The position numbers and the translations under genes are program-made. Shown here piece by piece: positions 33,648-64,000 of a DNA stretch of 64,000 bases. Under the pieces are notes generated by a model. It did not search any database. It was given only the letters and a program-made list of their open reading frames with translations, and was not told the DNA's origin. Within the stretch, counting starts at the first letter, position 1. Every line of letters begins with the position of its first letter. This stretch comes from Cerrena zonata (Eukaryota > Basidiomycota > Agaricomycetes > Polyporales > Cerrenaceae): positions 1,116,001 to 1,180,000 of the forward strand of contig JASBNA010000003.1 of NCBI GenBank assembly GCA_038087015.1. Direction: 5' to 3'.

Positions 33648-35378
33648 TTACTGTTGGGAAGCACTGGAAGTAAAGTTAGCATTGGACAGTAGACATGAAG
33701 ATATTGGAACTTACGCAATGCCGTTGGTGACAATGCCGGAGACACCGTCAGCAATGCCGACAGCGTTGTTGATGTTCTCAAGAGTCTTTCCGCTGGACTT
33801 GCGGACTCGGCGAGCCTCGAGGTCACGGGCGTGGGCAGCGCTGTAGACGTTGGTAGCAATACCGGTGGCACCATCAACGATGCCGACAGCGTTGTTGATG
33901 TTCTCGAGGGTCTTTCCACTGGACTTGCGGACACGACGGGCCTCGAGGTCACGGCTGTGGACGGCACTGTAGATGTTGGTGGCAATTCCAGAGAGACCGT
34001 CGGCGATACCAGCAGCGTTGTTCAAGTTCTCGAGGGTCTTTCCGCTGGACTTGCGAACACGGCGAGCCTCAAGATCCTCGAAGTCACGGCGTTGCTTGGT
34101 GGCACCGTAGATGTTGGTAGCAATACCGGTCGCGCCATCAACGATACCGACGGCGTTGTTGATGTTCTCGAGACGGTTGCCGCTAGACTTGCGGACACGG
34201 CGGGCTTCGAGGTCACGGGCGTGAGCAGCGCTGTAGATGTTGGTAGCAATACCAGTGGCACCGTCAGCGATTCCAACAGCGTTGTTGATGTTCTCGAGGG
34301 TCTTTCCGCTGGACTTGCGTACACGACGGGCCTCGAGGTCACGAGCCAGGACCTGAGCAACATGGTGGGCAACACGATCGTTGAACAATTTGTGGCTGAA
34401 GGGAATGCAGTTAGTCAACCGTCGAGTTCTGAAAGGCAGTCAAACTCACTTGAAAGCCCTCTTCTGCTTGGTAGTACCGTAGATGTTGGTGGCAATACCA
34501 GTGGCACCATCGACAATGCCGACAGCGTTGTTGATGTTCTCAAGAGTCTTGCCGCTGGACTTGCGGACCCGACGAGCTTCGAGGTCCTCGAAGTCACGGC
34601 TGTGAACTGCGCCGTAAATGTTGGTAGCAATTCCAGAGAGACCGTCGGCAATACCAGCAGCGTTGTTCAAGTTCTCGAGGGTCTTGCCGCTGGATTTGCG
34701 AACACGGCGAGCCTCGAGGTCACGGCTGTGGACGGCACCGTAGATGTTGGTAGCGATACCAGAGAGACCGTCAGCAATGCCTGCGGCATTGTTCAAGTTC
34801 TCAAGGGTCTTTCCGCTGGACTTGCGGACACGACGGGCCTCGAGCTCCTCGAAGTCGCGGCGTTGCTTGGCAGCAGCAGCGATGTTGGTAGCAACACCAG
34901 TTGCACCGTCAACAATACCGACGGCGTTGTTGACGTTGTCGAGGATCTTGCTCAAAGAGTGCTTTCGGCGACGAGCCTCGAGCTCCTGGTAGTCACGGCG
35001 CTGTTTAGCAGCAGCAGCGATGTTGGTGGCGACACCAGTTGCACCATCGACGATGCCAACAGCGTTGTTAACATTGTCGAGGATCTTGCTCAAAGAGTGC
35101 TTGCGGCGACGAGCCTCAAGCTCCTGGTAGTCACGAGCGGTGACACTATGACAATCCGAAGATTAATATCGACGTCATTGAGAATTTAATTATGTGAAAG
35201 CAACGTACCTATAGACGTTGGTGGCAATACCAGACAAACCGTCAGCAATGCCTGCGACGTTTTTGGCTTTCTCGAGACGGCTACCGCCGGATCGGACACG
35301 TCTGGCCTCATGGGGAGACGCAAACGCGGGGATAGAACAGGCGAGAACAGCAAGGACGACGGAGGTGGAGAAACGCAT
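33648..35378 (-). CDS. secreted tandem-repeat protein with dibasic sites (candidate Kex2-processed repeat protein)
   Basis: Four exons (35378-35209, 35145-34450, 34395-33715, 33663-33648) give 520 residues. A signal peptide (MRFSTSVVLAVLACSIPAFA) is followed by eleven repeats of about 40-46 residues. Each unit has a basic cleavage-type start (LEARR, then VRKSSGK or RKHSLSK), a short helix-forming stretch (TLENINNAVG), a Gly/Ala-rich hydrophobic core (GIVDGATGIATNIY or GIADGLSGIATNIY) and a linker, in some units ending KQRR or KQKR. Kexin cuts after RR and KR, so maturation would release a set of near-identical peptides. This is the layout of fungal KEP proteins, which include Ustilago Rep1 repellents, pheromone-like peptides and some RiPP precursors. 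No homology to a named KEP is claimed. No UstYa/DUF3328 or methyltransferase gene is nearby. The last exon of five codons rests on a strong donor, a CTAAC branch site and a CAG acceptor. Confidence 0.88.
33716..35340 (-). repeat. eleven-unit coding tandem repeat
   Basis: Units of about 120-140 bp on the minus strand, inside the secreted repeat protein. The first unit is degenerate (EARRVRSGGSRLEKAKN). Units 2 and 3 are of the RKHSLSK type and nearly identical to each other; units 4-11 are of the VRKSSGK type. Two core versions alternate (VDGATG and ADGLSG), and larger blocks of units repeat, so expansion was by unequal exchange of multi-unit blocks. The similarity extends past the stop codon: KLFNDR-coding sequence at the start of exon 3 has a relative in the 3' UTR (about 33620-33650). 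Confidence 0.9.
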
Positions 35379-53818: not shown

Positions 53819-55087
53819 ATGGATTCGGAGATACCTGTCCCCACCGAAACCAACTCGGTATGTCTTTGCAATCAATCTCAGCTACTGTAAGGCTACCTTG
53901 GTGTACTGATGTAGTCCACTATGTCTATCACAATAGCTTACTATGGCCCGTGACACCGCCATTCGACCTGTAACCATTCGTCAAGCACTCAGCGCTGAAA
54001 TGCCTCGTATTGATGCAGATTTCAAAATCGATGGTCATTTAGTGCGCACTGTAAGTCTATGTTATCAATACTCTTCTTAGATATCTAATAACGGAAAGAT
54101 CGGCATCGTTGCTAATGTTGTTCAAGTTATACATCTTCCTGTGGCCGAGCATATCCGGCGAGATCGCTATGTTCTGGATGATGGTACGAGTCGCGGTCGA
54201 ATCACTGCCTCACATACCGTAGCAGTTGAAGTGCCCATGCTGGAACCTCCTCCCGACTATGTTCATGTGGCCGGAACTTTATTCAACTATCGTGGTACCA
54301 ACTTCATTCGGGTTACAAGGATTCGTGTTGTCAAGGATCCCCATCAAATATACTTCCATCTTCTAGAGGCAATGATGGTCACAACAGCCTTTCGCAAGGG
54401 TGCATATGTAGGTCGTGATTTTCTCCCCGTGACAGTAAACAGTTCATCTTAGGTTACACTCCTAAAGCCTGTTACATCACGAAGAACAGAACAGCCTGCT
54501 ATAGCATCTCAAAATGTAGATGAGTCAAAAGAAGAAAATGTAGCTTTGCCCATCAATCAACCCATTGGCGGTGCATCGTCTCCTCTAGTCGACCACTCTG
54601 ACCGTGATAACGACTCAGAGGATGAGGTATCTTCTAATGCGTCACATTCAACATATCGGACAGCTACATCTGGCTCGGAAGACGTCGACGAATTACGCAT
54701 TGTTTCTTCTCTGTCCGCCCTTGACATCGATGTAACAGTACACAGAACTATCACTGGTGCAATTGAGCACCCAGTGATTGGACGAGATCCTTACTCTCAT
54801 CTCAGCCCCTTAGCAAAGGGATATTTTACTGCAACTCTTCAATGCTGCAGATCAGCCTGGCGCGGAGCGTCTTCATGTGACTATGATTAGGGATGGAATA
54901 AGGCCGGGACTTCGGTCAAGTGCAGAGGAGATAGAGTAGGTACATTGTTTCTGAACATTAGAGTTTTACTGAGTCGAATATCAGGGAGTCTCTGGATGAG
55001 CTTTTGAGAGAACAATATCTCGCTACCGATAAGGACTTTTTGCATTACTGGCTAAAACCACTTGGATGGAAGTATACTATGCTGTAA
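53819..55087 (+). CDS. divergent RPA32 (Rfa2) paralogue, one frame break near the winged helix
   Basis: Starts MDSEIPVPTETNS, then follows the RPA32 plan: IRPVTIRQALSAEMPRID, GIVANVVQVIHLPVAEH, LDDGTSRGRI, GTLFNYRGTNFIRVTRIRVV and DPHQIYFHLLEAMM (compare DPHEIYFHLLNAM in RFA2). A longer, acidic Ser-rich linker leads to a winged-helix-like end (ILLQLFNAADQPGAERLHV, then ESLDELLREQYLATDKDFLHYW). The frame is lost at AAAGGG (54815-54820), where one base too many separates SPLAK from DILLQLF. It lacks the Gly-rich phosphorylated N-terminus. A second RPA32 that replaces the main one in special complexes is known from human RPA4 and some plants; whether this one is active, meiotic or decaying is open. 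Confidence 0.83.
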
Positions 55088-55214
55088 TATATCCAAACCA
55101 ATAAAACACCCCAGTCCTCATGATTTTTGAACGTTTGGACGGAATGGCACACAGTGTGAAAGGTCAAACAACTTAAGGGTGTCTGAAGTGATAACCACTA
55201 CGCTATAGCACGCC

Positions 55215-55391
55215 CAAGGGTCGTTCGAAACTGTAATCCATGAAATGTACCCCCTCCAACTGTCGAACAGGACCCCGGGTAGTCACCAACCCTGGAACCC
55301 TCGAGGCGCGCAAACCACACGCTGCTATTGGTCAGAGCAATCGCTACGTCATGTCAAGAAAATACGAGTACGATACAATGTATAGTAGTAG
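55215..55391 (+). repeat. 177-bp direct repeat X, left copy
   Basis: Starts CAAGGGTCGTTCGAAACTG and ends ATGTATAGTAGTAG. It matches the copy at 61659-61835 over 177 bp with one difference seen (C versus T at the 24th base). The two copies bracket transposon copy A. Near its start it holds an imperfect inverted repeat (GGGTCGTTCGAAACTG against CAACTGTCGAACAGGACCC). Confidence 0.9.
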
Positions 55392-55830
55392 CAAGGGTCG
55401 TTCGAAACTGTAATCCATGAAATGGACACCCCCCGGGTTAACCCTAGTGAGTACGCGGGGTCCTGAAATTCAGAGCGGGAAGCAGTTTCATGCACAGTTT
55501 CATGTAATGTCATGTTCTGCTTTTTCAAGGTTGGCCTTAAAGTAGCGGAATAGGTGTCAATATATATTATTTGTGTTCTAGGAATATTGTTCGAGTGTAT
55601 ACTTTTGTCCGTCTTCCAAAATGCGATGTTTTATAATCGATGTCCGAAAAAGGTGAATGATGGATTATCTAAGAAAGACTCAGGTAAGCGTGTTTTGTCA
55701 TTCAATATTCCGTATGGAAGTGTAAACGCAATCACATTGAATTCACATTCAACGCAGTCTCATATCCGAGTCCCTCATTTCATCTAGATTCAGTCCTGTT
55801 AATCTCTGTAGAGTGGCAGGTCCACACCCA

Positions 55831-58800
55831 ATGCCATCTACTACCAATGAACCGAGCTTCTCTATGAGCTCATTTGTTGGTAATAATCACGGTCCTCCGA
55901 GTCTTGTTTCTGAACGCGACTTGGACATTTCAGACCGTCTGATTCAGTCGGCTGAATTAGAAAAAGAGAATATCCCACCTTTTGACTCGGCATGGCTTGA
56001 CGATCATGTGGATGGAATACAACCACTAGACCAGACTGGACTCGGAACCAACTGGGCTTTCACCAATTGGAGGTCGGCGGAGCCAGCTATTTCAGAGTTT
56101 AATGGCTGGCCATCCATTCAAAATGAACCCAGAAATATGGTATGATGAGTACTCGCATTTATGAGACCACACATAGAGCTTATTCCGATTACGACAGGGA
56201 CATACCTCCACTCTGAGCACACCCGCTGAGAGTAGCAACAGCTTGCAAGTGCCGAGTCCCGCTTCCGTACTATTGTCATTTCCGGAGCTACCTCAGACCA
56301 TTCAATCTGGTATCATCACCTCTAGTAACACTGAAAGCTCACCTGCTGGTATAACATCTGGGAACTTGCAACAACCAGCTCTTCCCGCAACAGGATATCG
56401 ACATGTTATCTGTCCCTTTTGTTACGCAGCTGTTCAAGTCGGTATCAAGAATGATTTCCACTTGCGAAAGCATACCAACAGCGTAGCGTGTTCGCGTGCT
56501 CGAGACAAGCACCTGATGCTTGAATCACAGCAGGACGTCTCGCAATGTGCAGAGATTGCACGTCGTGAGCTGATATCTCGGGAAAGGACACATGCCGCTT
56601 TGTTTCCCCTGAGTCAGACTCAGACCATACCGGTTGAAATAGTCGAGGTATGGATTATAGTATTTACCTCTTGTGATATAGACTGAAATTGCTACTAGAC
56701 GGGGGGTTTAGTGGGAGGTAGCTTGATCGAGTCAACACTAGGTGAACCTTGCCAAATGGAATCAGTTGGTGATGACTCCGTTTGTCATGGATATCCAGTG
56801 GTTTGGGAAACCAATAAACTGCTTATTGGTTCCGTCCCATGGCAGGCCTTCGAGCAGCAGACACTTGAGCTAGGTTGTACTCTTGTCCGTGCTGATATTG
56901 GAACTCGGAAATTATGGTTACAATCTATGTCATGTCAGAAAGTTGTTGACTGTGAAGATGGCAAGCAGAGTTGTCGATCATGTTATGCTGTTGTAAACTC
57001 GGGAGTAATCCATCGACTCATGTCAAGATCTTCCCTACCGTGGGATCCCCATACATCCTATGACTGGTTAACTCCCAATCAGCTGAGAGAAGCATTAGAG
57101 AAAAAGAATGAGGACTTAGCTCGACTGAGAACTAAGGTAATCTAATTAATATGTACACTATATTTGGTAATAACGAGATAATATCTAGACATCAAATAAC
57201 ATCCGAAAGGTTGCTCGCATGACAATCAAGATTGACGACAATACTCGTCTTATTAGCGCAATTGCTACCTCAGACGGCCCCCGTATTACTCGAGTTGTAC
57301 ATACTGCCCTTAAGCAGAATGTTAGTATTCGGGAGATCCTCAACCGAGTGGTTCGAGCAACCGAGGGAACATACCATGTTAAGGGGTACACCAAACAGGA
57401 CGTTGACCTTGCCCGTATATTCAAAATCTTGGGACATAGTGCAGGTGCATATGTCGCGTCGCATGCCCTTGGCTTACCTTCGATCAGCACGACTCGCCAG
57501 AGATCTAATCCACCGGTTATCTTACCATCTGCATCATCGAAAACAATGTCATCTGACATCCCCCTAAACCTTCGAGCATTCTTCCCTAGTCCACCTCCCC
57601 TTCATCATTCAAAACGAGGTCACAACATCGAAATCGACAATATTGCTGTCAAGCAAGGTGTTCAATGGATACGGGGTACAAACACCATGGTTGGACCCTG
57701 TCGTGAACACTGTAGTACCTATGACCTGAGCTTAAATGAGTTTGATGTAGCTCTAAAGCTGGCCCATGCAATGCATGGTGACAATGCTGCAGTTCATTAT
57801 GCATCCGAAGCTACAGTGGTCGCTATAGCACCATATGACTCAGACAACTACCACCCCCTTCCTATTTGTGTCTCAGGATCGTGCAAGGCGGAGTGTGGGA
57901 ATGAGCTTGCCATATTACTCACCCAGGTGATAAACGACTGGCATAGTTGCTGCGAGGATGAATATGGGCCGTTATGGACAGTGGACACTGATGGCGGAAC
58001 AGCTCTTCGCGGTGGATGTTACAAGGTATTGATGGTCAGAAAGTTTCAGACTTCATCAGAGATCTATCGTAAACTCTCACCGCTTAAAGGACTGAACCTT
58101 GAGTGTGGTGTTTATGATATCGTAATGGGACCTGATGGTAAACATGTTTTAAAACGTGAGTAGATTGTAAATCTCGATAGTAGTACAGCAACTTACCACC
58201 TAATGGCATATTTCAATAGGAATTGCAACACATTCACGTAGCCCGGAAGGTTCATTCATCAATGGAGTGGCGATGAATCGTCAACTATTGACACGGTGGT
58301 TGCGTCGGCTGCCTATCTTGGCTGAAGCTGATATAGAAAAACTCCTTGACCCTGCAGATCATCAGAACGTACCAAATGCTGTCAAACTCCTTCGTGCAAT
58401 CATCCTCCTTGGAAGCATCAACACTGCAGGTATGACTGCACTCGATATTTCGACTCATCATGCCTTCTGCCTGCAAGCGGAGTTATGGAACACACTTCTG
58501 GACGTACATATCAACCCTAAACTCTCGTTGCCAGAACAGCTGACACTTCTATCGAAGCACGCTCACCTATTGTTTGCCCTCTACCGCCTGCATGGGTCTT
58601 CCTTTCTCTCCAATCAGCTCTACAGCGATATCCAAGCGATGGTCAAGGCTGCATTTGTTTGTGTCGCACAACAACAAATTCTTGACCCTTCACAGCCCTT
58701 TTATCTATATCAGATTGCAAGCGATCGTCTAGAGGAGATGTTTGCTGAAGTACGCACTCAAACTCATGATTCAAATTGTGACATCTCACAGCTCGCACAA

Positions 58801-61548
58801 CGGCTCTCAACCGCGGGAGATCTTGTACAGCTCTATGACGAATACCCAGAGTGGTCTCGTGGACATCGGAGACTGAAGTACGCGGAGGGAGAAGGAATTG
58901 ACCATGTTAGTCCAACGTTCTTCAAGGGGGACATGGTGGTCGAGAGAGTACATCTCAACAACGTATGGAACTCTGGCTGTGTTGCTGCCCAACAGTGTCT
59001 CAAGAAGTTCAATGTCAAATTTGACATTAACACAGCCTTGGACGAACAAGGAGTGGACTTCTTGCTACCCAATGGAGGTGGGAAGTATCCAGGTGTATCT
59101 GCGGAGCCAGACCGTTCAATACCTGTTGAAGAAGCTGAGGCGAACGTACCAGAACTGGATACAGTGCAAACCTTGGACTCACTGGCAGGTGATCCTTTCG
59201 GGTTTTCCCCCAATAATCTTATTGTTGGATTTGATAAGAACGGTCAGCTCAAGACTGCGGACGAGAGCAATGAGGATTGGCTTGAGGTTCCTAGCGAAGA
59301 TGGAAGACGATCAAAGCCTGTGCACAAGTCCTCGATCATGTCTTATCTATTCTGTTCAAAACTTCCTAAGTTATGTGTTGATCGCCTTCTTCGTGTTCGT
59401 GGCTATACACGAGACTTCCGCAAACCCACCTCGACTAGTTCTTGCACCCCTGGAGAAGGCACAATCGTGATCGGCGACACTGCAATTGCACCATTCCGCT
59501 CTGGCGATTTGGTTGCACTAGGCGTCATGAAGGTCACAACACTCACCTACAAGAATGCGAGAGTGGAAGAAGTCAGTCTCGATAAGCTAGAAGATAAGGA
59601 GTCAGATGTGGTCGTGACAGGACAGATGCTTTGTATGGAGCAAATTGTACCGGTCAGTGAAAGTGATTTGGGCACCGACTCAGACAATCCAGAGATAGGT
59701 ATGTCTACAAGTCTCTTGAGATATTACTTCATAAATTTAAATTATCTATATTAATTAGAGCCATCGATTCCGAGCCCAAGTCAACCCGAATGGGTTTGGA
59801 CGGGAAAGTTTGTACAACTACAAAGACCCGCAAACTCACCGCAGCTGGGAACACGAACCTCACTCTTGGTTCGAGCTCCTGGCCACCTTGTTCACGCCCT
59901 CAATATGCCTCCCATCGCTGCATCAATTTTGCCGAAGAATATTCAAGAATCATTACTAGCACTGGATCGTAGCCCAAATTTTAGGCTTCATAAAAGTAAG
60001 GTCAAATTTTATAAAAAGTCTCTTACAAAAGATAATTTTAAGCACCTAAAAATTGTCAAAAAATGTAGAATTTCAGCAGAATTTGATGAATCATAAAATC
60101 CTTGGTTAATTCAGACTTTTGTATCTAATTTTTAGACTTTAGAAATATTAAATTTTTGCCTATTTTTTATTAGAGAAAAGTTTAGTATGCAAAATTCAAA
60201 ATTTTGATATGCTTTTATTTCTCTAGAAATCATAATATAATTGTATATATCAAAATAAAGTGTTATAAATAGAGAGCCTAGAGAGAAGATATAGACTACT
60301 ATTGTTGGTAAATCATAGTCTCTGTCAATTATACTATCTGATAAAGATATTTAAGCATGCAATATCACTGATCTTTCCAAATTAGCAGTTTAAATTTTAT
60401 ATTACTTTTGGAGAAACAAAAGCATATCAAAATTTTGAATTTTGCATACTAAACTTTTCTCTAATAAAAAATAGGCAAAAATTTAATATTTCTAAAGTCT
60501 AAAAATTAGATACAAAAGTCTGAATTAACCAAGGATTTTATGATTCATCAAATTCTGCTGAAATTCTACATTTTTTGACAATTTTTAGGTGCTTAAAATT
60601 ATCTTTTGTAAGAGACTTTTTATAAAATTTGACCTTACTTTTATGAAGCCTAAAATTTGGGCTACGGTCCAGTGTAGCCCAAGCACTCCCTGCATCGCTA
60701 TCAGTCAGCCAGGACTGCTTCCAACAACTATTATCTATGCTCTTTGCTGGTGAGGATACTCCTCTCTTGCCAAATGTGCTTGATAAGCACGGATGTACTG
60801 AGAAAAATGCATTCCCCTACCGGTCCCAAACCCGTCAACCATGTTTCATTCTCGAGAATGCGTCTCGATCAATTGCCACAAAGCTAGCATCCGGTTCCGA
60901 AGGCAAATACCAATGCCACCAGTGCCATGCTTCCATCGAGATCGACCGAATGCGAAGTCACGTAGGCCAGCACATCTTGTGCCGTCTTCTCGGGGTACCG
61001 GAGAATTCACTACATGAGCAGGTACGTGTCGTCTACTATTTGTCAGATTATTTCCTAAGTTACGGTTCCCATATTAGATACAACATTGCCAGCCATGCGG
61101 GTTTTGTGGTCGTGACACATGCACAATCGACCTCAAGAAATCCCGCAATGCCTTCAAAGTCATCTCGTCTTGTCCCTACGCATCTGAGTTCAAACTCGGA
61201 AATGCCAAGAAGTCATCTAAGCGACAGCCGTGCACCAATGTTCCAATACATTGCTCAATATGTGATATCGACCCAAAAACTAAGTGTCGACCTGTATTCT
61301 GGAAATTCAATATCTTCCATCACATACAAACAGTGCATCCGGCACACTGGAGCAACTCATCCCAACGCACTCAGAACCTTCCATCTTCCTTTGTTGATGT
61401 CCTCTCGGTCTCTGACTTCGAGCTTCAGGAGATTGTACCACTTCGCTCCCGACCATACCCAGTTCCAGCCACGACCACTCTCCTTTCACAATGTGAACCC
61501 GTTCACAACGATAATCCTCATGCTCGCAAGCGCATTAGAGTTTCATAA
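55831..61548 (+). pseudogene. zinc-finger, P-element-like transposase gene of copy A, interrupted by a MITE
   Basis: Exons on the plus strand encode a protein of well over 1000 residues. The N-terminal part has a zinc-finger-like CPFCYAAVQ, FHLRKHTNSVAC. The core keeps the spacing of P-type RNase-H transposases: EIDNIAVKQGVQW (57636, first Asp) followed by MVGPCREH, WTVDTDGGTALRG (57984-57992, second Asp), PDGKHVLKR (58132-58155; compare D-P-x-H-x-x-K in P transposase) and SDRLEEMFAEVR (58720-58755; compare D-x-L-E-x-x-F). The C-terminal part has two Cys/His clusters (YQCHQCHAS, SHVGQHILC; CGFCGRDTC and CSICDIDPKTKC). The MITE at 59960-60674 splits the exon after KNIQESLLA. The start is uncertain: the first ATG of the long frame is 55831, but an acceptor at 55810 suggests an upstream exon. 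The same protein type is known to me from many mushroom genomes as hypothetical proteins. The P relationship is inference. Confidence 0.7.
59957..60677 (+). mobile_element. 715-bp CACTA-type MITE with 3-bp target duplication
   Basis: Element 59960-60674, flanked by TAG (59957-59959 and 60675-60677). The ends read CACTGGATCG and, inverted, CACTGGACCG; the terminal inverted repeats are 257 bp (59960-60216 and 60418-60674) with one mismatch seen. The 201-bp centre is very A/T-rich and has no coding capacity, so it depends on a transposase elsewhere. The empty site ATTACTAGCCCAAGC is preserved in inverted copy B (about 62809), which fixes boundaries and duplication exactly. CACTG ends and a 3-bp duplication fit the CACTA/EnSpm (CMC) superfamily. 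Confidence 0.9.
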
Positions 61549-61658
61549 GTTTGTATTGTCCTATCTAATTCTTGGAATCATACTTCTTGCTGTATAATGA
61601 ACACTGTTTTTACGGACATATTGCTTATAATATGTATTTCTTCGATGTATCTACTACT

Positions 61659-61835
61659 CAAGGGTCGTTCGAAACTGTAATTCATGAAATGTACCCCCTC
61701 CAACTGTCGAACAGGACCCCGGGTAGTCACCAACCCTGGAACCCTCGAGGCGCGCAAACCACACGCTGCTATTGGTCAGAGCAATCGCTACGTCATGTCA
61801 AGAAAATACGAGTACGATACAATGTATAGTAGTAG
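61659..61835 (+). repeat. 177-bp direct repeat X, right copy, in the loop of the palindrome
   Basis: Same as 55215-55391 with one substitution seen. Its last 8 bp (AGTAGTAG) are also the start of the right arm, so X2 lies exactly between the 3' ends of copies A and B. Confidence 0.9.
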
Positions 61836-64000
61836 ATACATCGAAGAAATACATATTATAAGCAATATGTCCGTAAAAACAGTGTTCATTATACAGCAAG
61901 AAGTATGATTCCAAGAATTAGATAGGACAATACAAACTTATGAAACTCTAATGCGCTTGCGAGCATGAGGATTATCGTTGTGAACGGGTTCACATTGTGA
62001 AAGGAGAGTGGTCGTGGCTGGAACTGGGTATGGTCGGGAGCGAAGTGGTACAATCTCCTGAAGCTCGAAGTCAGAGACCGAGAGGACATCAACAAAGGAA
62101 GATGGAAGGTTCTGAGTGCGTTGGGATGAGTTGCTCCAGTGTGCCGGATGCACTGTTTGTATGTGATGGAAGATATTGAATTTCCAGAATACAGGTCGAC
62201 ACTTAGTTTTTGGGTCGATATCACATATTGAGCAATGTATTGGAACATTGGTGCACGGCTGTCGCTTAGATGACTTCTTGGCATTTCCGAGTTTGAACTC
62301 AGATGCGTAGGGACAAGACGAGATGACTTTGAAGGCATTGCGGGATTTCTTGAGGTCGATTGTGCATGTGTCACGACCACAAAACCCGCATGGCTGGCAA
62401 TGTTGTATCTAATATGGGAACCGTAACTTAGGAAATAATCTGACAAATAGTAGACGACACGTACCTGCTCATGTAGTGAATTCTCCGGTACCCCGAGAAG
62501 ACGGCACAAGATGTGCTGGCCTACGTGACTTCGCATTCGGTCGATCTCGATGGAAGCATGGCACTGGTGGCATTGGTATTTGCCTTCGGAACCGGATGCT
62601 AGCTTTGTGGCAATTGATCGAGACGCATTCTCGAGAATGAAACATGGTTGACGGGTTTGGGACCGGTAGGGGAATGCATTTTTCTCAGTACATCCGTGCT
62701 TATCAAGCACATTTGGCAAGAGAGGAGTATCCTCACCAGCAAAGAGCATAGATAATAGTTGTTGGAAGCAGTCCTGGCTGACTGATAGCGATGCAGGGAG
62801 TGCTTGGGCTAGTAATGATTCTTGAATATTCTTCGGCAAAATTGATGCAGCGATGGGAGGCATATTGAGGGCGTGAACAAGGTGGCCAGGAGCTCGAACC
62901 AAGAGTGAGGTTCGTGTTCCCAGCTGCGGTGAGTTTGCGGGTCTTTGTAGTTGTACAAACTTTCCCGTCCAAACCCATTCGGGTTGACTTGGGCTCGGAA
63001 TCGATGGCTCTAATTAATATAGATAATTTAAATTTATGAAGTAATATCTCAAGAGACTTGTAGACATACCTATCTCTGGATTGTCTGAGTCGGTGCCCAA
63101 ATCACTTTCACTGACCGGTACAATTTGCTCCATACAAAGCATCTGTCCTGTCACGACCACATCTGACTCCTTATCTTCTAGCTTATCGAGACTGACTTCT
63201 TCCACTCTCGCATTCTTGTAGGTGAGTGTTGTGACCTTCATGACGCCTAGTGCAACCAAATCGCCAGAGCGGAATGGTGCAATTGCAGTGTCGCCGATCA
63301 CGATTGTGCCTTCTCCAGGGGTGCAAGAACTAGTCGAGGTGGGTTTGCGGAAGTCTCGTGTATAGCCACGAACACGAAGAAGGCGATCAACACATAACTT
63401 AGGAAGTTTTGAACAGAATAGATAAGACATGATCGAGGACTTGTGCACAGGCTTTGATCGTCTTCCATCTTCGCTAGGAACCTCAAGCCAATCCTCATTG
63501 CTCTCGTCCGCAGTCTTGAGCTGACCGTTCTTATCAAATCCAACAATAAGATTATTGGGGGAAAACCCGAAAGGATCACCTGCCAGTGAGTCCAAGGTTT
63601 GCACTGTATCCAGTTCTGGTACGTTCGCCTCAGCTTCTTCAACAGGTATTGAACGGTCTGGCTCCGCAGATACACCTGGATACTTCCCACCTCCATTGGG
63701 TAGCAAGAAGTCCACTCCTTGTTCGTCCAAGGCTGTGTTAATGTCAAATTTGACATTGAACTTCTTGAGACACTGTTGGGCAGCAACACAGCCAGAGTTC
63801 CATACGTTGTTGAGATGTACTCTCTCGACCACCATGTCCCCCTTGAAGAACGTTGGACTAACATGGTCAATTCCTTCTCCCTCCGCGTACTTCAGTCTCC
63901 GATGTCCACGAGACCACTCTGGGTATTCGTCATAGAGCTGTACAAGATCTCCCGCGGTTGAGAGCCGTTGTGCGAGCTGTGAGATGTCACAATTTGAATC
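61836..64000 (-). mobile_element. P-like DNA transposon, copy B (inverted, 5' part beyond window)
   Basis: Inverted copy of element A, 3' end at about 61836, continuing past the right edge. It lacks the MITE. Only the 3' part is visible, corresponding to 58768 onward in copy A. Confidence 0.85.
61938..64000 (-). CDS. transposase-like protein of copy B, C-terminal part, frame uninterrupted
   Basis: Visible exons: 64000 down to the GT donor near 63069, about 63010-62464, and about 62407-61938 with stop at 61938. They read the same as copy A (VERVHLNNVWNSGCVAAQQC, WVWTGKFVQLQRPA), but NIQESLLA continues without a break into QALPASLSVSQDCFQQ. The C-terminal zinc-binding clusters follow (YQCHQCHASIEIDRMRSH; QPCGFCGRDTC). 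The DDE-like core lies beyond the window, so activity cannot be judged, but this copy is the better candidate for an intact gene. Confidence 0.75.

Follow-up and report, generated by a model that had tools for sequence, protein, structure and literature searches.

The reading frames between positions 55831 and 61548 of a 64,000-nucleotide stretch of the Cerrena zonata genome (contig JASBNA010000003.1, positions 1,116,001 to 1,180,000; hereafter the window) raise the question of whether they are the transposase gene of a mobile element and, if so, to which superfamily that element belongs. P elements are textbook animal transposons, and the original prediction saw in these fungal frames a zinc-finger transposase family with a P-like RNase-H core, on the basis of a series of motifs (IDN, VDTDGG, PDGKH and DRLE) whose order and coordinates we find as they were given. 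We conclude, with a probability of about 0.9, that the locus carries a P-superfamily DNA transposon of the autonomous, cut-and-paste type, which belongs to a lineage of mushroom-forming fungi. The span first proposed holds for the transposase frames, which form the gene of a 5.7-kb terminal inverted repeat (TIR) transposon; the transposon itself is larger and occupies 55392–61658 together with rearranged ends.

A DNA search of the 55.5-Mb host assembly reveals four copies of the transposon, two of them solitary (on C71 and C31) and two on C3, the contig that holds the window. First, CAAGGG...CCCTTG is present at every end of the four copies, and the TIR is 33 bp long and perfect in the C71 copy. 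Second, exact 8-bp target duplications accompany all four insertions, with GTCCAGAC at each flank of the C71 copy (5718 bp) and GACTCGAC at each flank of the C31 copy (5778 bp, C31:405326-411103); the defined ends and target duplications expected of a transposon are thus both in place. Third, a genome scan with a 28-base TIR pattern, allowing up to three mismatches, gives eight matches, which are the eight ends of the four copies (the reversed control gives none), and therefore no short derivatives with these ends are seen. Fourth, only nine single-position differences separate the C71 copy from the C3 copy. Where these two have the same letter, C-to-T changes (either strand counted) are found at 54 sites of the C31 copy, 50 of which are CpG, along with nine changes of other kinds; the C31 copy also has three premature TGA codons in its spliced reading and, in intron 3, a 60-bp insertion built of extra copies of a 30-bp unit. 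The sequences point to recent movement of some copies and to decay of another with a link to methylation. That a transposase was domesticated into an immobile gene, or gene family, of the host could be suspected from the low copy number, the two intact frames (below) and the many homologues in other fungi, but the TIRs and exact duplications at all four insertions, the nine differences between the C71 and C3 copies and the insertion of one copy into another (below) speak against it, and we consider it the least probable of the alternatives, with scarcely any weight. The GTCCAGAC duplication agrees at seven of eight letters with GGCCAGAC, the target of the fly P element; the other three duplications agree at five, four and two letters in the better orientation, and since these match poorly we draw nothing about target preference.

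The spliced gene comprises seven exons and six short GT-AG introns. Assembled from intact copies, as had been proposed, it gives an unbroken 1552-aa protein in two of the four (C71 and the second C3 copy), and the frame of the window copy ends at 1326 aa. Database protein P0001 matches the protein of the second C3 copy without a single difference, and the exon model is therefore probably independent of this analysis. The absence of a THAP domain and the presence of Cys/His clusters at both ends had been proposed from the outset; the clusters are real and conserved, the N-terminal finger having the pattern C-x2-C-x16-H-x5-C, and there is no THAP model among the Pfam matches listed for the window protein or the scanned family members. 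The beta-rich domain has a weak likeness to chromatin-reader barrels.

Conservation of the putative catalytic residues was counted in a 44-row family alignment, with gaps left out unless stated. D549 is conserved in 41 of 41 rows, D667 in 43 of 43 (the 44th has a gap) and E893, the Glu of DRLE (58732–58734), in 42 of 43 (the 44 rows include one other letter and one gap). Two candidates had been put forward for the second Asp, and it is the one at 57990 (D667) that is conserved; the first Asp of VDTDGG (57984) is not, in the 15 rows listed. Within PDGKH, D715 (58134) and H718 (58143) are each present in 40 of 41 rows, and in a profile search D715-x-x-H718 aligns on D339-T-P-H342 of 6p5a, a structure of the Drosophila P transposase; a passage of PMC8230255 describes a [C/D](2)H motif after strand 5, which in P includes D339. 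Passages of PMC7776569 give D528, K385, K400, V401, S409, F443, D444 and N447 as the GTP contacts of the P transposase, E531 as catalytic, and the enzyme as unique in its superfamily for using GTP as cofactor. D890, conserved in 43 of 44 rows, has the spacing to E893 that D528 has to E531, and V401 corresponds to V772, also conserved in 43 of 44; K400, however, aligns on an Asn of the window protein. By analogy, GTP use by the fungal enzyme is likely, and we put it no more firmly than that.

The predicted fold, computed for a homologue of the window protein, is that of RNase H, and its closest solved structure in the comparison is clearly the Drosophila P transposase, in keeping with the P-like core that had been proposed. 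The model places one Asp on strand 1, a second at the end of strand 4 and the Glu on the helix after the insertion domain, and on the fold match the three acidic residues would come together in one site, a question raised at the outset. Helices 265–402, situated in the model after D190 and before E419, by fold form an all-helical insertion domain between strand 5 and the catalytic helix. Within a span of 452 model residues, 365 align to residues 168–565 of 6p5a (13% identity), and most of the insertion domain must therefore be included. Next in the ranking come Transib, RAG1, the bacterial ISCth4 transposase and Hermes, as might be expected if this were a divergent hAT or RAG/Transib-like transposon that resembles P only in having a helical insertion in its RNase-H fold, and 8-bp duplications are usual for hAT elements (a passage of PMC12730594). 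Nonetheless, that reading seems very improbable: the hAT dimerisation domain PF05699 is not listed for any of the family members scanned (sets of 27, 8 and 28), and among the listed matches of its 26 in the genome none lies in the four copies.

Transposons of the Kyakuja-Dileera-Zisupton (KDZ) group also deserve consideration, being abundant in mushrooms and in this very genome, whose 141 PF18758 matches also serve as a positive control for the model, and Zisupton likewise makes 8-bp duplications (a passage of PMC12730594). However, none of the PF18758 genome matches listed falls in the four copies, and the KDZ model is without a match in the family, PF18758 not being listed for 27 members (E ≤ 1), eight members (E ≤ 1) or 28 members (E ≤ 0.1). 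The closest solved fold found is moreover that of the P transposase, although no solved KDZ structure is known for comparison. We therefore hold a KDZ origin to be a very small chance, comparable to that of a hAT or Transib-like one.

Iterated searching of a set of 5.8 billion proteins gathered 132 (36, 59 and 64 hits, overlapping), nearly all annotated as hypothetical or uncharacterised, in line with the original view that such proteins are frequent in mushrooms and usually unnamed; the organisms named among the matches listed are mushroom-forming fungi in the wide sense (Agaricomycetes). In a FastTree core tree of 115 of the 132 rows (17 with coverage below 70% were dropped; the rooting is arbitrary, and support is weak for 29 of the 112 inner branches), the window protein belongs to a supported group of 34 rows, and 64 other rows form a second clade that is likewise supported. 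It is in this second clade that the P superfamily is most readily recognised: of its 28 scanned members, 16 match at E ≤ 0.1 (best E 5.8e-5) the model PF21787, which represents the N-terminal RNase-H half of P-type transposases, and the clade member P0064 shows 34–36% identity to each of the four copies across two exons. Two proteins of the wider family also have such matches, P0028 to PF21787 (0.046) and P0026 to the model of the C-terminal half, PF21789 (0.0075), and these matches fall where D549 and E893 align; of eight members scanned singly, three match a P model and five do not. Searched against the PDB, a 44-member profile has the Drosophila P transposase as the second of six hits (E 0.2), in two collinear stretches.

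Several observations nonetheless weigh against assignment to the P superfamily or to a mobile element of this kind. First, there are the model matches. No family member reached the curated Pfam cut-off (the best has 23.8 bits against 24.6), and among 27 members of the wider family at E ≤ 1 PF21787 is matched in just two and PF21789 in one. The Pfam scan of the window protein matches no P model; searches of the protein or its pieces against Pfam, NCBIfam and the PDB returned nothing useful, and P0028, P0064 and P0036, put through the same search as the pieces, gave no matches each. PF21787 likewise has no match over the host genome, where control genomes are equally silent. Second, the two stretches aligned to 6p5a in the PDB profile search are not significant singly (E 19 and 66), and the P transposase is not found in the PDB by a profile of the second clade (A6) or by P0064 or P0026 alone. 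Third, the fold is that of a homologue 42–46% identical to the window protein, for which it stands in, and the GTP-contacting K400 has an Asn as its counterpart, as noted. Fourth, subterminal inverted repeats like those of animal P elements (11–12 bp) were not found among inverted matches of at least 10 bp in the outer 700 bp of both C71 ends, TIR excluded; a direct 10-bp repeat, CGGGGTCCTG, lies close to both ends at about chance expectation and was not used. Finally, neither ends nor 8-bp duplications that convince are seen at the more distant relatives in the genome, on C97, C26 and C162: on C97 the best candidate for an end agrees in eight of 12 end letters, which is the background level (the C71 control has 12 of 12 in the same scan), and the C26 and C162 places have more than 10 kb of near-identical sequence in common and so look like larger duplications, not clean elements.

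All of these are diverged relatives of the transposase: the relict at C97:59829-61680 has identities of 35% and 29% and contains stops, and the fragments on C26 and C162 have 51% identity over 95 residues.

The copy in the window has an unusual setting (Table 1). The right end at 61659–61835 is in the wrong orientation for the window copy, and another 177-bp right end stands isolated before its left end. Both C3 arms are 100% identical across the 5553 bp aligned, with a foldback miniature inverted-repeat transposable element (MITE) in one arm only. The odd arrangement of ends is explained by the duplications in the flanks, AGCACGCC of an outer element and AGTAGTAG of an inner one, the latter having inserted 177 bp from the right end of the former. 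We infer from this that the head-to-head pair arose by nested insertion followed either by inversion between the opposite bodies or by an assembly flip. An assembly error pure and simple, the transposon alone being real, is unlikely, if well short of negligible: assemblers can flip or duplicate arms as alike as these, but both target duplications of a nested insertion with inversion are present and exact, and the MITE is confined to one arm, so the two arms do not simply repeat a single read. Whatever the origin of the pair, the window copy is dead, its gene being broken by the 715-bp MITE inside exon 6.

Table 1. Positions of the transposase gene, its putative functional residues and the surrounding insertions in the window.
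Feature	Positions	Strand	Remarks
Exon 1	55831–56139	+	
Exon 2, with N-terminal CCHC finger (C175, C178, H195, C201)	56198–56647	+	
Exon 3, with C282/C332/C345/C348 cluster and weakly predicted coiled coil	56699–57136	+	coiled-coil Pfam model E 0.3
Exon 4, with region before RNase H, first RNase H part (D549, D667) and D(2)H motif (D715, H718)	57189–58155	+	
Exon 5, with helical insertion (GTP-binding-like) domain, catalytic helix (D890, E893) and start of beta-rich domain	58220–59698	+	
Exon 6, interrupted by MITE; C2H2 module C1361-C1364-H1376-H1380	59759–61021	+	numbering of unbroken copies
Exon 7 to stop, with zinc modules C1403/C1406/C1411/C1428 and C1455/C1458/H1478/H1483	61078–61548	+	
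Putative catalytic Asp 1, D549 (Asp of IDN)	57636–57638	+	
Putative catalytic Asp 2, D667 (second Asp of VDTDGG)	57990–57992	+	
D890-R-L-E893, putative GTP-contact Asp and catalytic Glu	58723–58734	+	putative counterparts of D528 and E531 in P transposase
Target duplication AGCACGCC of outer copy, 8 bp	55207–55214	.	partner at C3:1183377-1183384, beyond window
Right end of outer copy, 177 bp	55215–55391	-	severed from its own body by inner insertion
Target duplication AGTAGTAG of inner copy, 8 bp, within outer copy	55384–55391	.	reverse complement CTACTACT at 61651–61658
Left TIR, 33 bp	55392–55424	+	
Window copy: left end, gene and 3′ part to rearranged junction	55392–61658	+	
Foldback MITE, 715 bp, CACTGG...CCAGTG	59960–60674	.	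arms about 287 bp; TAG duplication; breaks gene
Right end of second, head-to-head copy, 177 bp	61659–61835	-	
Second copy, intact gene	61836–64000	-	extends past window to C3:1183376

The left 281 bp of the MITE has 362 candidates in the genome, 40 of which were scored and gave 42 matches, 40 of them (including the two window arms) at 94–100% identity; judged from these sequences, the MITE family is large and fairly young. Elsewhere in the window, a cluster of diverged direct repeats, mostly 77–89% alike, occupies 33723–35256, and just upstream of the outer insertion, at 54081–54890, are frames that by eye resemble an RPA32-type OB-fold gene, for which Pfam gives nothing at E ≤ 0.01.

Comparison with known systems defines where the family stands. 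With the Drosophila P transposase (PDB 6p5a and 6pe2) it shares, by prediction, an RNase-H core into which an all-helical insertion domain is set, the DDE order, the D(2)H motif and the Asp three residues ahead of the catalytic Glu, as well as TIRs of similar length (about 31 bp in P, 33 bp here), 8-bp duplications and possibly the succession of DNA-binding part, coiled coil and region before RNase H. It departs from P in having no THAP domain, a CCHC finger and a C4 cluster on the N-terminal side, three zinc modules together with an additional beta-rich domain on the C-terminal side, and about twice the length (1552 aa against 751); nor were subterminal inverted repeats found in the outer 700 bp of the C71 ends. 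THAP9 and the zebrafish P-like elements likewise have a P-type transposase, with 8-bp duplications in zebrafish, but theirs carries a THAP DNA-binding domain and the TIRs are shorter (13 bp in zebrafish, according to a passage of PMC7776569). Also close are the rust-fungus elements of Repbase (P-1_PSt, P-1_MLP and P-2_MLP), which were reported in 2011, in a passage of PMC3164196, as P-superfamily elements of Basidiomycota with 8-bp duplications, previously unknown in any Dikarya; the likeness meant here is one of description, and no rust fungus is among the homologue names listed. Distant P homologues in Amoebozoa and Chromalveolata are mentioned in a passage of a 2014 survey (PMC3985635). The literature searched, which did not extend to Repbase, contains no description of P elements in mushroom-forming fungi; we thus claim no priority, and the term little-described lineage is fair for mushrooms within that literature. 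The rust-fungus report makes the earlier suggestion of a new system too strong, and the family is better described as a variant within the P superfamily that is new, widespread and devoid of THAP than as a new kind of transposon.

A working model follows the domain order. The zinc fingers at both ends of the protein would do the work of a THAP domain in recognising the transposon ends, the coiled coil would pair two subunits, and, with GTP seated in the insertion domain, the RNase-H core would excise the transposon and join it to the target with an 8-bp stagger. A large fungal family with the same predicted core and other DNA-binding ends could be used to probe whether both the GTP cofactor and the unusual end chemistry date back to the early superfamily, and some of the host fungi can be grown and transformed. 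Many 'hypothetical proteins' of mushrooms would also gain a name. If the C-terminal domain does read chromatin, the question of targeted insertion opens as well.

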